The notes under the pieces are model-generated. The model was not told where the DNA came from and ran no database searches. It saw only the letters and a list, made by a program, of their open reading frames with translations. Positions 2,916 through 27,925 of a stretch of 28,121 nucleotides of DNA are shown here, piece by piece; the first letter of the stretch is position 1; each line of letters opens with the position of its first letter. The position numbers were made by a program, and so were the translations under genes. The stretch is from the IMG/VR virus record IMGVR_UViG_3300037517_000770, positions 1 through 28,121 of that record; one strand, written 5' to 3'. The stretch is from a virus.

Positions 2916-3437
2916 CTAAGCCGGGCCGCTGCCCGTTCCTGTTCCAGTGAAGTTGACGTTGTTACTCTCGCCGTACATTGATGCAGGCGTGATTGTGCTA
3001 GTGTCGATTGCGTCGGTCACAGTGCCTCCAGTGCCCGTGCCAGTTCCCGGCTGGACGCTAGTTCCCTCGTCGTTGCAGTCCTCGGCGATGATGTACCATG
3101 CACCATTGCACCAGCCCGCAATTCCGTAGCGGTCGCCATTGGCACAAACGGCCGAGGTTGTCCAGTTGTAGACGGTGATGTTCTGGGTGCTGTCTTTGAT
3201 TTGTTCGGTGGTATTGCTTTCGTTCCACACGTCGCACTCGACGCTGCCAAGCAGGGTGCCGACTCGCCCAGGGATTCCGCCGCTGGGTGCTTTGATGAGC
3301 TTGTGCGGAACGCTCTGCTGTATCATCCGCGGCGGCTGTTGCGTGACATACTGCGGGACGGTTGCCCTCTGGCCGTTGGTTCGCAGCCAAGCTTTCCATT
3401 CACGCAGAGTTCTGATGTCCTCGGGAGACAATTGCAT
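2916..3437 (-). CDS. structural protein with Gly-Thr repeat C-terminus
   Basis: A 173-residue protein. Residues 1-20 (MQLSPEDIRTLREWKAWL) form a charged amphipathic helix, followed by a Pro/Gln-rich linker and a domain with four Cys (WNGAWYIIAEDC). The tail has two low-complexity Gly-Thr runs (GTGTGTGG and FTGTGTGSG). The ATG overlaps the stop of the preceding gene as TAATG. Small proteins with a linker and a Trp/Cys domain are common among distal tail genes of planctomycete phages, from memory. The Gly-Thr runs are probably flexible linkers. No named family is assigned. Confidence 0.65.
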   Translation of the reverse strand: MQLSPEDIRTLREWKAWLRTNGQRATVPQYVTQQPPRMIQQSVPHKLIKAPSGGIPGRVGTLLGSVECDVWNESNTTEQIKDSTQNITVYNWTTSAVCANGDRYGIAGWCNGAWYIIAEDCNDEGTSVQPGTGTGTGGTVTDAIDTSTITPASMYGESNNVNFTGTGTGSGPA

Positions 3438-7114: not shown

Positions 7115-7540
7115 TTAGTTTCCTGCGGTCCATGCTGGCGGGGTGCCGCCGGACCATTTGACGGTGATCTCTCCAGTTTGCACTTGGCTTGTGGCAAGCG
7201 ACGGAAACTTTACGTTGGTTACCAGTCCTGTGCCTGCGTAGTTGGCGGCAGTGGTTCCGCCAGGTGCAACCGGCCAAGTGATGGTCACGGTTTCGGCCGC
7301 GGTGCTGGTTGCATACCAGCCAGCGGTTCCAGCCGGGTCAAACTGGAATGTCAGCTTGACTTCTCCTGGCTCCTCTAAATCGCCAGCCATGTAAGTTGGA
7401 GTTGTGCTGGCCAAGTGGGTAATGTCAATTGCTGGCCGAGAACGCTCGCCTGGATCAATCGTCAGCCAGTTCAGCGCACGGCTGCTTGTTCCAAAGGTAA
7501 TCGTTCCGCCGTGGCCTGTGTCAATTCTCGTATTTGCCAT
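7115..7540 (-). CDS. major tail tube protein
   Basis: A 141-residue beta-rich protein beginning MANTRIDTGHGGTITFGTSS. It has typical tail-tube signatures: RPAIDITHLASTTP (target-helix region), YMAGDLEEPGEVKLTFQFDP and a C-terminal ITVKWSGG. This matches the phage tail tube family related to lambda gpV. Length is normal. SD TAGGAGG precedes the ATG at 7540. It follows the tail terminator and gp10-like genes, the conserved order. It forms the hexameric rings of the non-contractile tail. Confidence 0.8.
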   Translation of the reverse strand: MANTRIDTGHGGTITFGTSSRALNWLTIDPGERSRPAIDITHLASTTPTYMAGDLEEPGEVKLTFQFDPAGTAGWYATSTAAETVTITWPVAPGGTTAANYAGTGLVTNVKFPSLATSQVQTGEITVKWSGGTPPAWTAGN

Positions 7541-18415: not shown

Positions 18416-20050
18416 CTAAGCCCTGAGTGCTGTATCAAGTGACGCCAACTGACTACGGCTGAGTTCCGCCGATTGAACACAAAGCGAAACAGCGGAATCG
18501 TATCCAGCCCCGGCAGTAACGTGAGAGCTGGTCAAGTCGTTGTCGCTGTTGGATGCGTCTCCCCAGACGCCAGAACCCGAACCGCTTAGAACCGACTGCT
18601 GCCAGAGGTTGCGAAGCTGCGTCATCGTGGTTGCGGTCAGACCTGCTGCGGTTAGTCTTGCCAGCCCAGCAGCTCCGCTCAGCGTCACGTAATAATTGGC
18701 GTCGATGTCAGCGACAAGCGTGCCCAAGTTTGTCGGGTACGCTCCGTTGAATGCGTAGTCGCTGTAGCAATCATCATCAAATGAAATTAGCACGTTATCG
18801 CGAACCGTGTAGTTGTTGCCGCCACCGCTGGCTGTCGAGCCGCCCTGAGTCCCGCCAAGCAGAATGCAGCGGTCAGCGACGATAGTATTGCCTTCGATGT
18901 TTGGATTCGGCCCAAACGCCAGCACGCTCGCTTGACACAGATTGTTTTCAAACTGTATCCCGTCGCCCCACAGATAAACTTGGTGGACGTTGGTAGTGTC
19001 GCCGAGCTGAGCGACGCGGAAGTAGTTGTCAGTGACAACCGCTCCGTCGGTGTTGGCAAACAACGAAAACACGCCAGCACTCAAAACCGGCTGCGTCATG
19101 TCGTTGTCTGTGATTGCGATTGAAGTAAAGTTGATTCCCTTGGCGTTGTTGACTGCCCGTGTCGAGGCTTCCGTGATTTCCTGCCCGACGCCAATCCAGC
19201 CGGACGTTGTATTTCCGGACATGACCAGGCTGGCAGTGGTCGATGTACCCGGCGACGGAGAGTAGATAAACATCGCGTACCCACTGCTGTTAGTGTAGGT
19301 AATCGTGTTGTTACGAATCTCTATAGGTGAGGTTGAGTTGCTGGCGATGATCCGCAGTTGATTAACGACGGTATTGTTATCAATCGTAATCTGTGAGTTT
19401 TGCAGTTTGACGCTTGCCCCAGACAATACGGTCGTGCCGCCAATTGCGGCCGTGGAGCTGATAACTGCTCCGTCGATGTCGATATTCGTGATTGAACCGA
19501 CCACCAGATTCGCCCACAGATTCCATCCCGTTATCGTGCAGCCTGACTGAATACGAAGCGTGCCAGAAGCCGGAGCGTTGATTCGGATTCCCTCTTCGTT
19601 GAACACCCGTGCGTGGGTGAACGTGCAATTCCCGGCCAGCGTGATGTTATAACTGCCGGTCGAAGTAAACAGAAAAACGACACGGTTACAGGTTACGTCA
19701 CAATTCTCCACCCGCAGCGTTGCTTTGGCATTGTCCAGCCCAGTAATAAAACGGTCACAGGCATCGTTGACTACGAACGGGCTTGAAGTTGCCGAGCGAA
19801 CGAGAATTGACCCGCCATTGTGCTGCGGCACTAGCCGAATATGGTCAGTCGATTGCAGTGCCCCAGACGGCACAACGTTGACGACCAGATTGGTGTTTGC
19901 CGTCCATTTATTAACCAGTGATTGATAGGTAGCGTGATAGATGGTCGCAAACGGTGCCGACTGCGATCCGTTGTTGGAATTGCTTCCACTCACCGGGTCC
20001 ACCCAAAACTGAATCACGCTTTGACCACCAAGCAACATCAATAAACCCAT
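18416..20050 (-). CDS. right-handed beta-helix tail protein (adhesin or tailspike)
   Basis: A 544-residue protein starting MGLLMLLGG, followed by the beta-helix entry motif FWVDPVSGSNSNNGSQSAPF (family pattern: V-x-P-x-x-G-s-d-x-n-x-G-t-x-x-x-P-f). Then come many short strands with Asn/Ile/Thr ladders (INAPASGTLRIQSGCTITGW; NNTVVNQLRI; MSGNTTSGW). Such folds bind or cleave host surface polysaccharide. Catalytic residues cannot be assigned. Start set at ATG 20050, overlapping the stop of the upstream lectin-like gene (TAATG) with GGGGG upstream; the 5-codon extension at 20065 is unlikely. Confidence 0.75.
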   Translation of the reverse strand: MGLLMLLGGQSVIQFWVDPVSGSNSNNGSQSAPFATIYHATYQSLVNKWTANTNLVVNVVPSGALQSTDHIRLVPQHNGGSILVRSATSSPFVVNDACDRFITGLDNAKATLRVENCDVTCNRVVFLFTSTGSYNITLAGNCTFTHARVFNEEGIRINAPASGTLRIQSGCTITGWNLWANLVVGSITNIDIDGAVISSTAAIGGTTVLSGASVKLQNSQITIDNNTVVNQLRIIASNSTSPIEIRNNTITYTNSSGYAMFIYSPSPGTSTTASLVMSGNTTSGWIGVGQEITEASTRAVNNAKGINFTSIAITDNDMTQPVLSAGVFSLFANTDGAVVTDNYFRVAQLGDTTNVHQVYLWGDGIQFENNLCQASVLAFGPNPNIEGNTIVADRCILLGGTQGGSTASGGGNNYTVRDNVLISFDDDCYSDYAFNGAYPTNLGTLVADIDANYYVTLSGAAGLARLTAAGLTATTMTQLRNLWQQSVLSGSGSGVWGDASNSDNDLTSSHVTAGAGYDSAVSLCVQSAELSRSQLASLDTALRA

Positions 20051-20880
20051 TAGGCAATCCCCCAATAGGTCTTCTGGTTGGCGTCAATGGCGGCCCGGTT
20101 GGCAGACTGGTCAGACTTCCACAGAATGAACTCCGAGTAATAGCAGGCTGGCGAGAATGTCGTTCCTAAGTTGTTTGCTAAAAATCGTCGGTTTGTCGTT
20201 GTCCAATCTGCTACGTTGGCAAACGTGCCAACAACTCCCGCCTGAATCAAAGCACCGGTATGCAGTGCCGTGTACAGGTCGCCTCGTGTCGAGTAAGAAA
20301 CGGCCGATTCATTTTTGCGAACACTGGAAAGAGTGAAAGACGTTGCTAATGTGGTGCTTGAGCTAGATTGCTGCGAATAAACCGCCGCAGCCGTCGCACT
20401 TACGCTGCCAATAATTGCAGATGACGTTTCTGATGTCGGGATGCCAAACACCCCAAACCAATCGCACGGCGAGTTTTGCGTCACAATCGGATAGGCCAGC
20501 CCGATGTTGCTGTTGGCGGTTTGGTTACGAATCGTAACCTTGCCGCTGTATGTTTCGAGTGCCCCGCTGGCGACAATTCGTGGCTGTAATGCGTCGGTCG
20601 ATTGTGTCGCGTTGGCACTTCCAACTTGGTCATACCACGTTTTAACAAACCCATCGCCAGCAGCGCAAAACGACAACAGCGACGCTGTGTCGATTAAACC
20701 GCCAGAAAAGCCGATGTCCTGCTCTGTGCTGTCGCTGGAACGCCGCACACGCAAGCAGCTGCCAGCGTAAGCAGTTCGCAATTTCCGCAGACTATAGGCA
20801 CCTGCCGAACCAGTGTAGGTATCCAGCAGTGGCGGAGTTGTCGGCGTTGATGCGCTTCCCAGCAGGAGCAACAGTCCCAT
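20050..20880 (-). CDS. arabinofuranosidase-B-like / lectin-like tail protein
   Basis: A 276-residue protein starting MGLLLLLGSAS, then residues 28-95 with AYSLRKLRTAYAG, VRRSSD (45-50), DIGF (55-58) and GFVKTWYDQVG (78-87). This order matches the start of the alpha-L-arabinofuranosidase B catalytic fold, a concanavalin-A-like beta sandwich. The rest (CDWFGVFGIPTSETSS ... YYSEFILWKSDQSANRAAID) is typical of laminin-G-like phage lectins. Catalytic acids cannot be confirmed, so binding rather than hydrolysis is quite possible. Function would be attachment to host glycans. Confidence 0.75.
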   Translation of the reverse strand: MGLLLLLGSASTPTTPPLLDTYTGSAGAYSLRKLRTAYAGSCLRVRRSSDSTEQDIGFSGGLIDTASLLSFCAAGDGFVKTWYDQVGSANATQSTDALQPRIVASGALETYSGKVTIRNQTANSNIGLAYPIVTQNSPCDWFGVFGIPTSETSSAIIGSVSATAAAVYSQQSSSSTTLATSFTLSSVRKNESAVSYSTRGDLYTALHTGALIQAGVVGTFANVADWTTTNRRFLANNLGTTFSPACYYSEFILWKSDQSANRAAIDANQKTYWGIA

Positions 20881-21473: not shown

Positions 21474-22265
21474 CTATGAGATGGCATCCGGCGTTGGATA
21501 CTGCATCCCCGCCGGTGCGTAACCGATAAAGACCGTCCATCTGCCTGCTAGTGCCGTCTCGATGCTTTTCAGTGTCCATTCGTGGCAGCCGTCGCCGCTC
21601 CAGTTTGCCGACCACGAGTTGATGTTGACCACGTTTTGCGATGGTCGCCGCTGCCAGAACACGGTGCTGTGTCCGCCGCCGCTGCGGTTGCTGTAGTTGT
21701 CAACGATCTCTTCGTTGCAGCTGTCGTTCCATGTCAGGCCGGTTTGGATTGGAAGGCCCTGTTCAAGCCAGTCCAGCATTGACTGCAGGTCTTTGAATGG
21801 TTTCGTCGTCTGGAGCTTGAACAGGAATTTGTTGGCAGCCGATGCGGGCTGGGCCGGGTTGTAGCGTGACGGATACGGCCAGTCGGATTCGAGGCACATC
21901 CCGCTTTGCGTCGCGACCCACTGGCCAGCGGAAAGCGTGCTGCCCTGATCGCCGCGGATGCCGTCCTTCTTCTGGCTAAGGTAGTAACCCGCAGCTCGGC
22001 TGAACGCTGCTTTGCGGCCGGTGGCAAGGAAGTAGCAAATCTGAAACACGGTCGCCAGTGCGTGGCCCTGACAAGCGCCCTGCTGCCCTTGGTCCGTAAT
22101 CGACACGATGCCCAGCGGGTCGGCCTGCGTGTTAAACGTCGGGAACGTGTCCCGGTACCACTTCAGCAGCTCGCCCGGTTCCGTTCCGGTTGCTTCCAGT
22201 TGGCCGACGTTCTCGCTGCCGAGTGCCCAGCCCAGTTTGCCTTGCTCTAGCTTGCGTCCGCTCAT
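21474..22265 (-). CDS. papain-like (C1) cysteine protease
   Basis: A 263-residue enzyme. The papain spacing is exact: Gln59 then Cys65 (DQGQQGACQGHA), His199 in GGGHSTVFW, Asn216 in NINSWSANW, and the Trp that packs on it. No signal peptide at its N-terminus. It is encoded between a secreted poly-proline protein and a small membrane protein. C1 peptidases in such phage positions could be endolysins acting on peptide crosslinks or proteases acting on the protein-rich planctomycete envelope; neither is proven. The ATG overlaps the upstream stop by four bases. Confidence 0.8.
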   Translation of the reverse strand: MSGRKLEQGKLGWALGSENVGQLEATGTEPGELLKWYRDTFPTFNTQADPLGIVSITDQGQQGACQGHALATVFQICYFLATGRKAAFSRAAGYYLSQKKDGIRGDQGSTLSAGQWVATQSGMCLESDWPYPSRYNPAQPASAANKFLFKLQTTKPFKDLQSMLDWLEQGLPIQTGLTWNDSCNEEIVDNYSNRSGGGHSTVFWQRRPSQNVVNINSWSANWSGDGCHEWTLKSIETALAGRWTVFIGYAPAGMQYPTPDAIS

Positions 22266-23833: not shown

Positions 23834-24502
23834 CTACCGGTTGAGAAGTTGCCGGACTCTACCGGCAAGTCCTGCACGAATCGGGGCTGTGACGCTGTGA
23901 ACGGTGCCTGCCACGGTTTTCACCTTCTTCTTGGCCCAGACGCTGCCGCCACTGACCACGCCACAAACTTTGCCAGCGGCGTTGACCACTGGACCACCCG
24001 AATCGCCAGGAATCGCATAGCTAAACAGCACCATCGACTTTTCGCCGACCGCTGCCACCTTGGACTTAAAGCACCGCAGGCCTTGACCGCCGCCAAACCC
24101 GCAGACACGCACATCGTCGCCTTCCGCAGCATCGACGACTTCGAGGACACTACAGCCGCCCGGCATGTTGCAGTTCAGCACAGCCACGTCGGCCTCACGG
24201 TCACTGCCACGCAGGGTGGCCTTGTTGGTGCTGCCGTCGTGAAAGCTGACCGTAAACGACTGATTGCCGTCGGCGATGTGTGCGGCCGTCAGAACGGCAG
24301 GAGACTCGCCAGCGTCGACGATGCACCCGGTGCCGGTGCCGCCGTTGGTATCGCCGCGGACAACGACTAGTGCCGTCACCAGCTGCGGCTCACAGTCAAC
24401 GAACTCCCACAGACCAGAATCCTTTCCGACTTGGCCAGCAGCGTGCTGGACCAGCAAGAGAGATACAACCAGAACTGATAAAGACAGCTTGGCGAGATTC
24501 AC
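23834..24502 (-). CDS. secreted trypsin-like serine protease
   Basis: A 222-residue enzyme with a signal peptide (LSLSVLVVSLLLVQHAAGQ, residues 6-24). Catalytic triad: His75 in TAAH, Asp105 in READVAVL and Ser168 in GDSGGPV, so an active S1/HtrA-like protease domain without a PDZ domain. Two Cys pairs suggest disulphides. GTG start at 24502 with AGGTG upstream. A secreted protease in a phage lysis/early region is unusual; it could process envelope proteins or own adhesins. Confidence 0.8.
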   Translation of the reverse strand: MNLAKLSLSVLVVSLLLVQHAAGQVGKDSGLWEFVDCEPQLVTALVVVRGDTNGGTGTGCIVDAGESPAVLTAAHIADGNQSFTVSFHDGSTNKATLRGSDREADVAVLNCNMPGGCSVLEVVDAAEGDDVRVCGFGGGQGLRCFKSKVAAVGEKSMVLFSYAIPGDSGGPVVNAAGKVCGVVSGGSVWAKKKVKTVAGTVHSVTAPIRAGLAGRVRQLLNR

Positions 24503-24774: not shown

Positions 24775-24967
24775 GTCTCGCCCTCCAGCACTGTTTCGGC
24801 ATCCGCTCAATGCCGTAGGTCCGTTTAATGTCCCAGTACGCCAGCCGCTCCGATTCCCACCGCCGCCACCACGCTGGCTTGTACCGCCAGAAGACATCGC
24901 TGCTGCATCCTTCCTCGATGATGGCCGCCCGCTCGTCCCACAGTTCGATGATGTCAGCCTCGCTCAT
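24758..24967 (-). CDS. small hypothetical protein of the replication module
   Basis: A 69-residue protein starting MSEADIIELWDERAAIIEEG, acidic first half and Trp/Arg-rich second half (WWRRWESERLAYWDIKRTYG). No known motif. Start at ATG 24967 with AGGTG seven bases upstream; overlaps the preceding stop by 14 bases. Trp/Arg-rich helices of this sort often occur in small phage regulators, but nothing specific is claimed. Confidence 0.65.
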   Translation of the reverse strand: MSEADIIELWDERAAIIEEGCSSDVFWRYKPAWWRRWESERLAYWDIKRTYGIERMPKQCWRARRDAAG

Positions 24968-25325
24968 ACTCAATCACCTGCTGCTCGAGCTGCGACACGA
25001 ACTCAGCCACCTCGCCAGCCGTCACGCCAGGGTTGGCCAGCCGGTAGACCCTCACCGCTTCCGCAATCCGCTGGCCGTGTGCGACCTTTGGATTGTGGCT
25101 TCGCCGGTTCCAGCTGCGATACTCAATCACCGCACGCCGTACCACGCTGGCAGGCGGCATGCAGTCACGGGTTCGGCCGACCTTCAGGATGGCGGCCGAC
25201 AACTCGTCACGGTCGAACTCGCCCAGCACCAGATGCCAGGCGTTGACATCGACCTCGGTCAGCTCGCGGCCGAACAGGCTGAACAGTGCCGCCAGCATCA
25301 GGCCCAGTTCACTTCGATTGACCAT
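24954..25325 (-). CDS. helicase-loader-type replication protein (G39P-like), tentative
   Basis: A 123-residue helical protein. An N-terminal helix (ELGLMLAALFSLFGRELTEV) is followed by VDVNAWHLVLGEFDRDELSAAI, KVGRTRDCMPPASVVRRAVI. This pattern (short acidic segment, A-I-x-x-x, then a proline-containing P-x-x-x-x-x-R) resembles phage loader/inhibitor proteins of the G39P type, which partner an initiator and a hexameric helicase. It lies directly downstream of the initiator-like gene with GGAGG before its ATG. Family call is moderate to weak. Confidence 0.5.
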   Translation of the reverse strand: MVNRSELGLMLAALFSLFGRELTEVDVNAWHLVLGEFDRDELSAAILKVGRTRDCMPPASVVRRAVIEYRSWNRRSHNPKVAHGQRIAEAVRVYRLANPGVTAGEVAEFVSQLEQQVIEYERG

Positions 25326-26352
25326 TGGAACCTCCTAGGAATCCTGCCACGCCTGCCTCCTCCTGAGCCTTAATCCGCTGCAGCATCTCGGCCATGTTCT
25401 GCTGCCGCTGCTGGCCGAAGGTGACCGGCTTGGCGCTGGCCTTGCCGCTATTGCCTCGCAGGTCGTTGCGTTCCCATTGGCGAACAGCCGCCTTCCAGTC
25501 CTTCATGGGGTTCTTGCCGACCTTCCAGCCGTTGGCTGTGTAGTGGTCCATCCACTCGTGCGGGTCGACGGTGTTGCCACGTTCCTTGCAGTACGCCACC
25601 ACATCCTCGATTGTCGGTCGCACCATTGAGATACCACTCTTAGTGGTATCTCTTTCTTCTCTTCTCTCCTGTACTGTGGTCACGCTTTTGTCACAAACTT
25701 TTGTGACATTTTTGTGACGCAATTCATCAGGTGTTTTGTTGCTCAATTTTTGATTGCAAACAGTGCAGCAAGTCACCAAATTTTCAGCGTTTGTGGCACC
25801 ACCACGGCTTTCTGGCTGGACGTGATGCACCGACAATTTAGCGCCAATGTACGGACCGACCACCGCTTTTTTGCTAGGGTTCCACTGGCAATAAACGCAC
25901 GTAAACCCGTCACGCTCGTAGACCTCTCGCCGCACCGCAGCCGGAACGTGATCTTTTTGTTTGTTTGCTGTCACAACTTTTTGTGACATTTGTGTGACAC
26001 GTTCTTTTTGCTTCCTTCGAGAGGCTGAAATCCGCTTTTTTGCGGACTCGCCCAGCCATCGGTCCCAGTTCGGAAAGCTGATGTAAGGCTTGCCGTCGGT
26101 GTCCACGCCATGCTCCAGCCATCCAGCGTCGGCCATCAGCTGCGGAAAGTCCGGCAGGGATGTCACCCTGCCCAGCGATGTTAGCGTGACGTGCTTGACG
26201 CAGCCGTCTTGCGACTGGCGTGACGCCCACGCCCAGATTCGATGCAGGTAGCCGACAATGACTTCCTCTCGCTGGCCAATACGCTCGGCCATGTAGGTCA
26301 CCGCCGGGTCTTCGTACAGGTCCAGCCGCATTGGTATCCAATCACCAGCCAT
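25309..26352 (-). CDS. replication initiator with an internal HNH domain
   Basis: A 347-residue protein; coordinates below count from the second Met. Residues 1-115 look like a phage replisome-organiser winged-helix domain (DWIPMRLDLYEDPAVTYMAE ... WAWASRQSQDGCVKH ... ISFPNWDRWLGESAKKR). Residues 135-212 are a complete HNH nuclease: VYERDGFTCVYC, LSVHHVQPESRGG, NAENLVTCCTVCNQKL. Residues 245-295 (RPTIEDVVAYCKERGNTVDP ... GWKVGKNPMKDWKAAVRQWE) match the C-terminal partner-binding domain of replication proteins. GGGAGG lies six bases before ATG 26352. It is followed by a helicase-loader-type gene. The DNA also contains origin-like repeats. Confidence 0.8.
   Translation of the reverse strand: MAGDWIPMRLDLYEDPAVTYMAERIGQREEVIVGYLHRIWAWASRQSQDGCVKHVTLTSLGRVTSLPDFPQLMADAGWLEHGVDTDGKPYISFPNWDRWLGESAKKRISASRRKQKERVTQMSQKVVTANKQKDHVPAAVRREVYERDGFTCVYCQWNPSKKAVVGPYIGAKLSVHHVQPESRGGATNAENLVTCCTVCNQKLSNKTPDELRHKNVTKVCDKSVTTVQERREERDTTKSGISMVRPTIEDVVAYCKERGNTVDPHEWMDHYTANGWKVGKNPMKDWKAAVRQWERNDLRGNSGKASAKPVTFGQQRQQNMAEMLQRIKAQEEAGVAGFLGGSNGQSK
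25628..25720. other. candidate replication origin inside the initiator gene
   Basis: In coding-strand order: three GTCACAA-type units (25720-25690; two direct at 11-bp spacing, then one inverted), then a purine tract AGGAGAGAAGAGAAGAAAGA (25671-25652), then a perfect 11-bp inverted repeat with 3-base loop (25628-25638 / 25642-25652, GAGATACCACT arms). The layout iterons, purine-rich tract, palindrome is that of the lambda origin within gene O. Confidence 0.6.
25690..26000. repeat. two 31-bp iteron clusters flanking the HNH-coding DNA
   Basis: 25690-25720 and 25970-26000 match at 27 of 31 bases. Each has GTCACAA in one orientation and two copies of its reverse (TTGTGAC-type) at 11-bp spacing. 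The two copies are in different reading frames of the same gene, so the similarity is kept at DNA level, not protein level. They lie either side of the HNH-coding segment, 280 bp apart. Confidence 0.8.
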
Positions 26353-27482
26353 CATTCACCTCCCGTCAGCCTGTCCATTGCCATCCTTGCCACCACTTCA
26401 GCCACCTGCGGAACTATGGCGTTGCCGAGGCATCGCAACTTGTTGACTCGGTTTGGGATTCTGGTTGCGACTCGCCCGGCAAATCGCACTAGTCCACCGG
26501 AAACCCCATTAACCAGCTCACCCATTGCGGGTTCAGCTGCCCACCAGCCACCGCTGCCAGTGTCGGCGTGTTCCGTTCGTGTTCCGCCGGGTAGCCGCCC
26601 TCCTTGGCGTTGTGTGCCGTTGGTGTCGGCAGGAACTTGACCGCTGCTTCCAGCGAAATCTGCTTGCCAATTGCCATCCGCCTGGCTGTACTGTTCTGCG
26701 TTGCCCATGGTCGATTGTCTGAGGCGTTTGGTGTCGGCCACCACTTCACCGCATCGTTCAGCGTTATCGACTGCTTGGTCCCGCTCGGCCTCTTGCCTGT
26801 TGGCCTGTTCTTCGATACTCGGCCGCCGGTGCCCATGCTTGCGTCGGGTGTAGGCCACATCGCCATTTCCACGGGTGTCGGTGTTCGTCCTTGCCTGGAC
26901 TTCTCGCTGCGTCCCGTTCCTTTTGCCATCGCTGCCGTTGGTGTTCCGACAGTTATCTGGCAGCTCGGCCATTTCTGCATACTGGGACAGAGCTGATTCG
27001 CCGTTGCTGTAGGCGAGAATAAAAACCCTGTCCCGGATATGCGGGGCACCAACGGCGGCAGCCGGTATGCAATGCCACTCCGCATCAAACCCGACCTCGG
27101 CCAGCGTCCCGAGAACTCGGTCCAGCCCTCTAGTAAGCAACGCTGCCACGTTCTCCAAGACAACTGCTCTCGGTTGCAATTCTCGAACCAAGCGAATGGC
27201 TTCAAAGAACAACCCGCTTCTGGCTCCATCAAGGCCTGCTCCTTTCCCGGCGTAGGAAATATCCACACAGGGAAATCCGCCGATGATGCAATCGACGCGC
27301 TCGAGGTTGTGTTGTCCGCACTGCCGGATGTCTCGCTCCCGATGCACGTCTGGCCAGTGCCGCTTAAGGATTTTCGTCGCATAGTCATCAATCTCCACCT
27401 GCCACTTGCACTGAAACCCAGCCCGTTCAAAACCTAAGTCAAACCCGCCAATGCCTGCGAACAAGCTCCCAAACGTCAGCAT
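26352..27482 (-). CDS. C5 cytosine DNA methyltransferase
   Basis: A 376-residue enzyme. Motif I SLFAGIGGFDLGFERAGF, motif II VEIDDYA, motif IV GGFPCVDIS with catalytic Cys72, motif VI LENV (E110, N111), motif VIII IRDRVFILA and C-terminal motif X RCLGNAIVPQVAE are all present and in order. The region between motif VIII and X (about 160-300) is hydrophilic and Asn/Thr/Arg-rich. Start set at ATG 27482, five bases after GGAGG; earlier starts lack a proper SD. It likely protects phage DNA from host restriction. The same DNA has a long second frame described in the findings. Confidence 0.88.
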   Translation of the reverse strand: MLTFGSLFAGIGGFDLGFERAGFQCKWQVEIDDYATKILKRHWPDVHRERDIRQCGQHNLERVDCIIGGFPCVDISYAGKGAGLDGARSGLFFEAIRLVRELQPRAVVLENVAALLTRGLDRVLGTLAEVGFDAEWHCIPAAAVGAPHIRDRVFILAYSNGESALSQYAEMAELPDNCRNTNGSDGKRNGTQREVQARTNTDTRGNGDVAYTRRKHGHRRPSIEEQANRQEAERDQAVDNAERCGEVVADTKRLRQSTMGNAEQYSQADGNWQADFAGSSGQVPADTNGTQRQGGRLPGGTRTEHADTGSGGWWAAEPAMGELVNGVSGGLVRFAGRVATRIPNRVNKLRCLGNAIVPQVAEVVARMAMDRLTGGE

Positions 27483-27925
27483 CCCTGCCTCCATCCCTGC
27501 GTTCGTGCCCATTCCGCAATCAGCAGGCTGTCCGCATTGGCGTGCGTGATTTTCATAAACGGCCAGCGACGCTGGGCCTCAGCCTTGCTGACGTTCTTGT
27601 CGCCTTTGGTGAGGCAACCCATCTGCTGCTGCCACTTCTGCGGACGGACTAGCAGGTACGGCACCTGGTTGGCATCCAGCAAGCCAAGCACATGGCCGAA
27701 GCTCTGGCCGAAGGTGAACGCCGATTTAACGCCCATCTGCGGCGAGCTGTGAACCTGCTCAAGTGCGGCCTTGGCCCGGTGCAAATCGAACTGGTGGAAC
27801 CAGTCGGCGATGTCCTTGCCGGTGCCGTCCAGCTTGCAGGGGCTGCCGTCCCAAGGCGTCCCGTCGTCCCAGATCGCCGACACGCTGCCGCTCTTGCCGG
27901 GGTCAATTCCGAAGTAAATCGCCAT
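27476..27925 (-). CDS. RuvC-like Holliday-junction resolvase
   Basis: A 149-residue RNase-H-fold nuclease. Catalytic acids: Asp8 in FGIDPGKSG, Glu56 in AALEQVHSSPQMGV, and Asp132 in THANADSLLIAEW. The segment FTFGQSFGHVLGLL is the family's DNA-contact loop. SD CGGAGG precedes ATG 27925. It overlaps the methyltransferase gene by seven bases. It would resolve branched replication intermediates before packaging. Confidence 0.85.
   Translation of the reverse strand: MAIYFGIDPGKSGSVSAIWDDGTPWDGSPCKLDGTGKDIADWFHQFDLHRAKAALEQVHSSPQMGVKSAFTFGQSFGHVLGLLDANQVPYLLVRPQKWQQQMGCLTKGDKNVSKAEAQRRWPFMKITHANADSLLIAEWARTQGWRQGC

Follow-up and report, generated by a model that had tools for sequence, protein, structure and literature searches.

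A putative initiator gene and its surroundings

The stretch of viral DNA analysed here, hereafter named the window, is 28,121 nucleotides long. A gene on its minus strand (Table 1) matches PHROG 2509, "replication initiation protein", over residues 2-135 of its 348-residue product (E 2e-31), and its relatives carry the annotation "replication initiation protein" or "primosomal protein I". Sequence similarity places this initiator in the PHROG 2509 group. Its N-terminal part is predicted with high confidence (AlphaFold pLDDT 90-97 over approximately residues 11-100) to be a winged helix, according to the order of helices and strands, followed by a long basic helix. The PDB folds nearest to this domain are winged-helix proteins (a weak match, E 0.04), and the initiator also resembles a GpO N-terminal protein weakly in structure (E 4e-4). 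No family or model was matched by the domain in a Pfam search, nor did a PDB profile search give any match. The C-terminal domain was modelled with a pLDDT of 76-94 around residues 241-270, and of 79-83 up to residue 300.

The original prediction had placed an origin of replication between these two domains, a position that the AlphaFold model bears out. It had overlooked an HNH endonuclease domain, situated between the winged-helix part and the right iteron block, as well as a second iteron block. The gene that follows the initiator had been taken for a helicase-loader type, which could not be upheld: the open reading frame in question (24954-25325, 123 aa) could not be matched significantly to any family or phage, and its AlphaFold model is poor (pLDDT 57).

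A C5 DNA methylase gene (26352-27512, Pfam E 1e-50) lies just upstream of the initiator gene, and a Holliday-junction resolvase gene (27476-27925, PHROG E 1e-23) is also found upstream. In epsilon15, a methyltransferase likewise precedes the initiator, but the resolvase comes after it. The window phage also encodes a trypsin-like protease (23834-24502, E 9e-17), a papain-like protease (21474-22265, weak match) and an arabinofuranosidase-like protein (20050-20880, E 2e-8). A search for the host by protein in genome contigs gave no match.

Table 1. Features of the initiator gene and of the putative origin embedded in it
Feature	Positions	Strand	Remarks
Initiator gene with embedded putative origin	25309-26355	minus	348 aa
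Predicted N-terminal winged-helix DNA-binding domain and start of long basic helix	26002-26355	minus	aa 1-118
Extra GTCAC/GTGAC pair within the N-domain coding region	26162-26190	minus	
Left iteron block, far side of HNH	25970-25998	minus	forward 25998, 25987; inverted 25974
In-frame HNH insertion	25712-25968	minus	~258 nt; absent from L003
HNH endonuclease domain	25735-25899	minus	aa 153-207; Pfam HNH E 4e-10, HNH_5 E 4e-9
Right iteron block	25679-25718	minus	GTCAC forward 25718, 25707; GTGAC inverted 25694, 25683
Purine-rich period-5 tract ACAGTACAGGAGAGAAGAGAAGAAAGAGA	25649-25677	minus	variant of the family's AGAGAAGAGAAGAGAAG
Perfect hairpin	25628-25652	minus	11-bp arms, 100% complementary; 3-nt loop
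C-terminal partner domain	25456-25629	minus	~aa 243-300; exchanged as a module in L003

Repeats, tract and hairpin inside the gene

The right iteron block has spacings of 11/13/11, the canonical array of the family. Two GTCACAA copies 11 bp apart had been announced in this region and are indeed present; iterons were correctly located within 25720-25628, but two of the four copies are inverted, which had escaped mention. The left and right blocks are 90% identical over 30 nt and share the 11/13 spacing. Since the iteron step of 11 bp is not a multiple of 3, the repetition belongs to the DNA, not to the protein. The gene contains 14 GTCAC/GTGAC motifs against 8.3 expected (5000 synonymous-codon shuffles, maximum 13, p < 1/5000). 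Over the whole window GTCACA is not above chance (18 versus 16.8); what stands out is how the copies are clustered and spaced.

The tract, earlier described as purine-only in type, is purine-rich instead, with a few pyrimidines, and not strongly AT-rich (58% A+T versus 45% in the gene). It differs by three mismatches from the 19-nt family form, and its distance from the last iteron exceeds that of most relatives by a few bases. This divergence and shifted position count against an origin. The announced 11-bp palindrome proved perfect. The hairpin it forms has a folding energy as DNA of -10.4 kcal/mol (z = -6.6), and is identical in two relatives, L002 and L005. An Rfam search gave no match. 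GC skew, which had been proposed as a check on the origin, was uninformative because the genes are on one strand.

Conservation in relatives acts on the DNA

Relatives were collected in two ways. On the protein side, an N-domain profile yielded 80 loci from viral contigs, and the protein-found sample comprises 83 distinct initiator genes. A tract-anchored DNA pattern, blind to protein, was found in 29 stretches of bacterial genomes (Verrucomicrobia, Planctomycetes, Proteobacteria, Firmicutes) and in at least 120 of viral contigs; by a simple motif test, 79 of 103 distinct sites fell inside a gene whose N-domain could be recognised. The combined set comprises 135 distinct initiator genes whose tract has at most one mismatch over 17 nt. 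As the genes found by DNA pattern were selected by their tract, the 83 protein-found genes constitute the unbiased sample.

In these 83 genes, the 19-nt tract AGAGAAGAGAAGAGAAGAG is identical in 59 and retained with at most 4 mismatches in 78. It is read in all three frames (37/18/23), as it is in the combined set (64/15/56). The layout common to the 135 genes consists of GTNNC iterons, inverted iterons, AGAGAAGAGAAGAGAAG, then often a hairpin, and the usual place of the tract among relatives is one base past the last iteron. Within the 69 nt that precede the last iteron there are 2.36 iteron cores per gene, versus 0.80 expected, and inter-iteron distances peak at 11 (84/135 genes) and 25 (71/135). 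Inside the tract the ratio of AGR to CGN arginine codons is 336:0, versus 491:2138 elsewhere in the same genes, and the tract survives only 265 of 13,500 synonymous shuffles (2%). Codon bias, shuffle losses, excess cores and spacing peaks all indicate that the constraint acts on DNA. The REEKRREE peptide is encoded by the tract in its commonest frame, and one could imagine that selection bore on the protein alone, through this conserved charged linker and through Val-Thr motifs. Such an explanation is contradicted by the three frames, the 336:0 ratio and the few shuffles that retain the tract, and is practically untenable. Failure of the repeats to persist in relatives would have refuted the original prediction. 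The outcome was in its favour: relatives retain the iterons, the tract and frequently the hairpin, against codon preference.

A stem of at least 7 bp follows the tract in 29% of the genes versus 2.6% of control stretches, with a sequence that varies. That the hairpin is kept in only ~30% of relatives counts against an origin. It could instead be a terminator of antisense transcription, as a weak terminator-like match exists on the plus strand at 25628-25652. We consider this unlikely: the conserved neighbour on that strand is CTTCTCTTCTC, with no T run, and the sequence of the hairpin changes while its position after the tract recurs. The loops of these hairpins are often CTAAAG, CTAACG, CTTCGG/CTTCG, CTACGG or CGCAAG in relatives. 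They resemble stable RNA tetraloops, and the hairpin may act in RNA.

A forward/inverted dyad is also found in codons 45-66 of 97 of the 135 genes, versus 7.6% in synonymous shuffles, and is possibly a second initiator site or an operator. Initiators of other replicons often autoregulate. This custom and the dyad early in the gene speak for the repeats being autoregulatory operators, or some other regulatory site, with replication starting elsewhere. The main array, however, is ~350-680 nt from the start of the gene, nothing promoter-like is seen near it, and an operator would not be expected to be followed by an invariant purine tract, set in most relatives one base beyond the last iteron, which makes this explanation improbable.

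Three sites, in L204 (~1100-1190), L256 (~3245-3335) and L177 (minus strand, ~7380-7475), have origin-like iterons and tract with no recognisable initiator N-domain nearby; they may be prophages in decay, or satellites that exploit the origin of a phage. A BLAST search of the tract against phage records gave no match, low-complexity filtering being the probable reason, and neither the tract nor this layout of iterons within an initiator gene was found described in the open-access literature searched.

Iteron type follows the N-terminal domain

Iteron cores are of the form GTNNC, with GTAAC, GTCAC, GTCCC and others. The core is the same in 84-100% of N-domain pairs that are at least 60% identical, and in 15-30% of pairs that are 30-50% identical. 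The tract, unlike the iteron type, does not vary with the N-domain. Among the columns that covary with the core, residue 114 gives the strongest signal; it lies in the basic helix that follows the winged helix, and is Val where the iterons are GTAAC and Gln or Lys where they are GTCAC. As covariation was not corrected for shared descent, a contact by residue 114 remains a hypothesis. Column 51 also covaries, but the gene itself carries an iteron at that point.

Compared with the window, L003 matches at 92% on the N-terminal side and as far as 25650, and continues with a different C-terminal half, while L005 matches at 95% from 25694 onward and differs on the N-terminal side. These breakpoints show that initiator halves are exchanged at the putative origin. 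Swapping of halves is likewise known for lambdoid O genes.

An HNH domain splits the iteron array

The most unusual feature of the locus is the HNH domain that splits the iteron array. Its CxxC/H/N/CxxCN motif, conserved in the alignment, is intact. In L003, the nearest relative devoid of HNH, the counterparts of 25969-26360 and 25650-25711 are contiguous, with one continuous iteron array at that point and ~92% nucleotide identity on either side of the empty site. The insert has 50% GC, versus ~60% in its flanks. It is not an intein: by reading, it runs ANKQK...LRHK, without N-terminal Cys/Ser or C-terminal His-Asn.

Presence of HNH among relatives is patchy: 4 of 152 collected genes, and one fragment, carry it. 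Initiators with HNH in the linker fall into five lineages: A (window, L002), B (L033), C (L051, L056, L098-L101), D (L066) and E (L103). In all five the catalytic motif is intact, and the array after HNH still has the tract and iterons in both orientations. In the HNH tree, which rests on few columns, B-E form one clade (99/92) with A separate, and this clade is found in initiators with differing C-terminal domains. L103 could not be placed on the N-domain tree, its N-terminus being off contig; the four placeable carriers require four changes, forced by well-supported branches. Neighbours without HNH on this tree are L003 and L016 for A, L065 for C, and L077 for D. In lineages A-D, in-frame GTCACA copies flank HNH on both sides, so that recombination between iterons could delete it without a frameshift.

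The simplest reading, which we find rather likely, is that HNH is a mobile in-frame nuclease domain with the iteron array as its target. Both nuclease activity and mobility are inferred, and there are no cleavage data. The main alternative is a working role in the initiator, HNH nicking the origin, for instance, or cutting rival origins. In its favour, HNH is in frame with its catalytic motif intact in all lineages, and four of the five belong to one HNH clade that spans initiators with different C-terminal domains. Its rarity, the close HNH-less relatives of its carriers and the empty array of L003, otherwise nearly identical, argue against such a role, which seems less probable to us without being negligible.

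Phage HNH homing endonuclease genes are known (e.g. PMC10448857), and are similar in that an HNH nuclease of patchy distribution sits close to an essential gene, where genetic exchange takes place. The HNH of the window differs in being in frame within the initiator, inside the putative origin, and in having no intron or intein features. In the Louie-type case, examined and set aside, HNH is a separate gene beside the replication gene and no iterons were seen in it. We found no paper describing HNH inside an initiator's origin in the open-access literature, and none of the PHROG 2509 members examined in the phage collection had an HNH domain inside the initiator.

Relation to known origins

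In phage lambda, the iterons are inside gene O, with an adjacent opening element (PMC7466680). Lambda and Stx-phage origins resemble the window in these respects, and in the position of the iterons between the DNA-binding and partner-binding halves of the initiator. The resemblance of layout that gave rise to the original prediction of a lambda-type origin is thus real, but the elements are of other types. The iterons of lambda, 18-19 bp long, are inverted repeats of an imperfect kind, whereas the window family has GTNNC half-sites in two orientations; the lambda tract is AT-rich, whereas that of the family is a period-5 purine tract, AGAGA. Moreover, the initiator has no Pfam match to the lambda O family. 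By analogy, the origin of the window would work like that of lambda, but outside the lambda O family.

Closer relatives are the initiators of PHROG 2509, including those of epsilon15 and Xanthomonas phage CP2 and other primosomal protein I, which belong to the same N-domain family. The order of iterons and tract in epsilon15 and CP2 is the same as in the window; the epsilon15 initiator differs by its DnaT-type C-terminal domain. In a variant of the Rac prophage (MN652886), related to the PHROG 2509 group, ydaU has GTAAC iterons followed by AGAGGAAGAGGAAGA. An active origin, oriJ, has been reported for Rac (PMC3945230), but no mapping of oriJ to ydaU was found in the open-access literature searched. 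E. coli K-12 YdaU was rejected as a family member, its N-domain being DUF1376 and its repeats different. The K-12 gene (L096, 5120-5977) contains linker repeats of the TGTTCAAACA type in both orientations, and its C-terminal half is the same as in the Rac variant with the GTAAC type. The K-12 repeats would thus be iterons of a further family placed at this joint, and perhaps correspond to oriJ.

A probable origin and its proposed working

The best explanation for these observations, and in our opinion a very probable one, is a phage replication origin inside the gene of its own initiator, interrupted by an HNH cassette. The anatomy, its conservation at the DNA level in 135 genes, the agreement of iteron type with N-domain and the patchiness of HNH are observed, and comparison with relatives strengthens this interpretation strongly, as far as sequences can; no data exist on origin activity, binding or cleavage. 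Binding by the initiator, melting and helicase loading are inferred only. The winged helix and the following basic helix would bind GTCAC half-sites. The central forward/inverted pair would form a dyad, and the flanking copies, one helical turn away, would extend the complex to the purine tract, which may be a strand-opening or strand-capture element. Helicase machinery would be brought in by the C-terminal domain. The block to the right of HNH would be a complete canonical origin on its own, the cassette inside the array being most likely a homing-type mobile nuclease domain.

Tentatively, and with more doubt than conviction for the claim as a whole, we propose a widespread, undescribed class of phage origins, in which the N-domain reads a two-letter iteron code and an invariant AGAGA tract adjacent to it opens the strands, the whole being contained in coding sequence, and which is also a homing site for an HNH targeting the uninterrupted origins of competing phages. 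The locus would also provide an example of a nuclease domain that has entered an essential origin and left the protein unbroken. The signature would predict replication origins directly from sequence in many uncultured phages and prophages, and the natural series, in which iterons vary and the tract is constant, may reveal how initiators recognise and open DNA. The layout of this putative origin is common to phages of very different bacteria.
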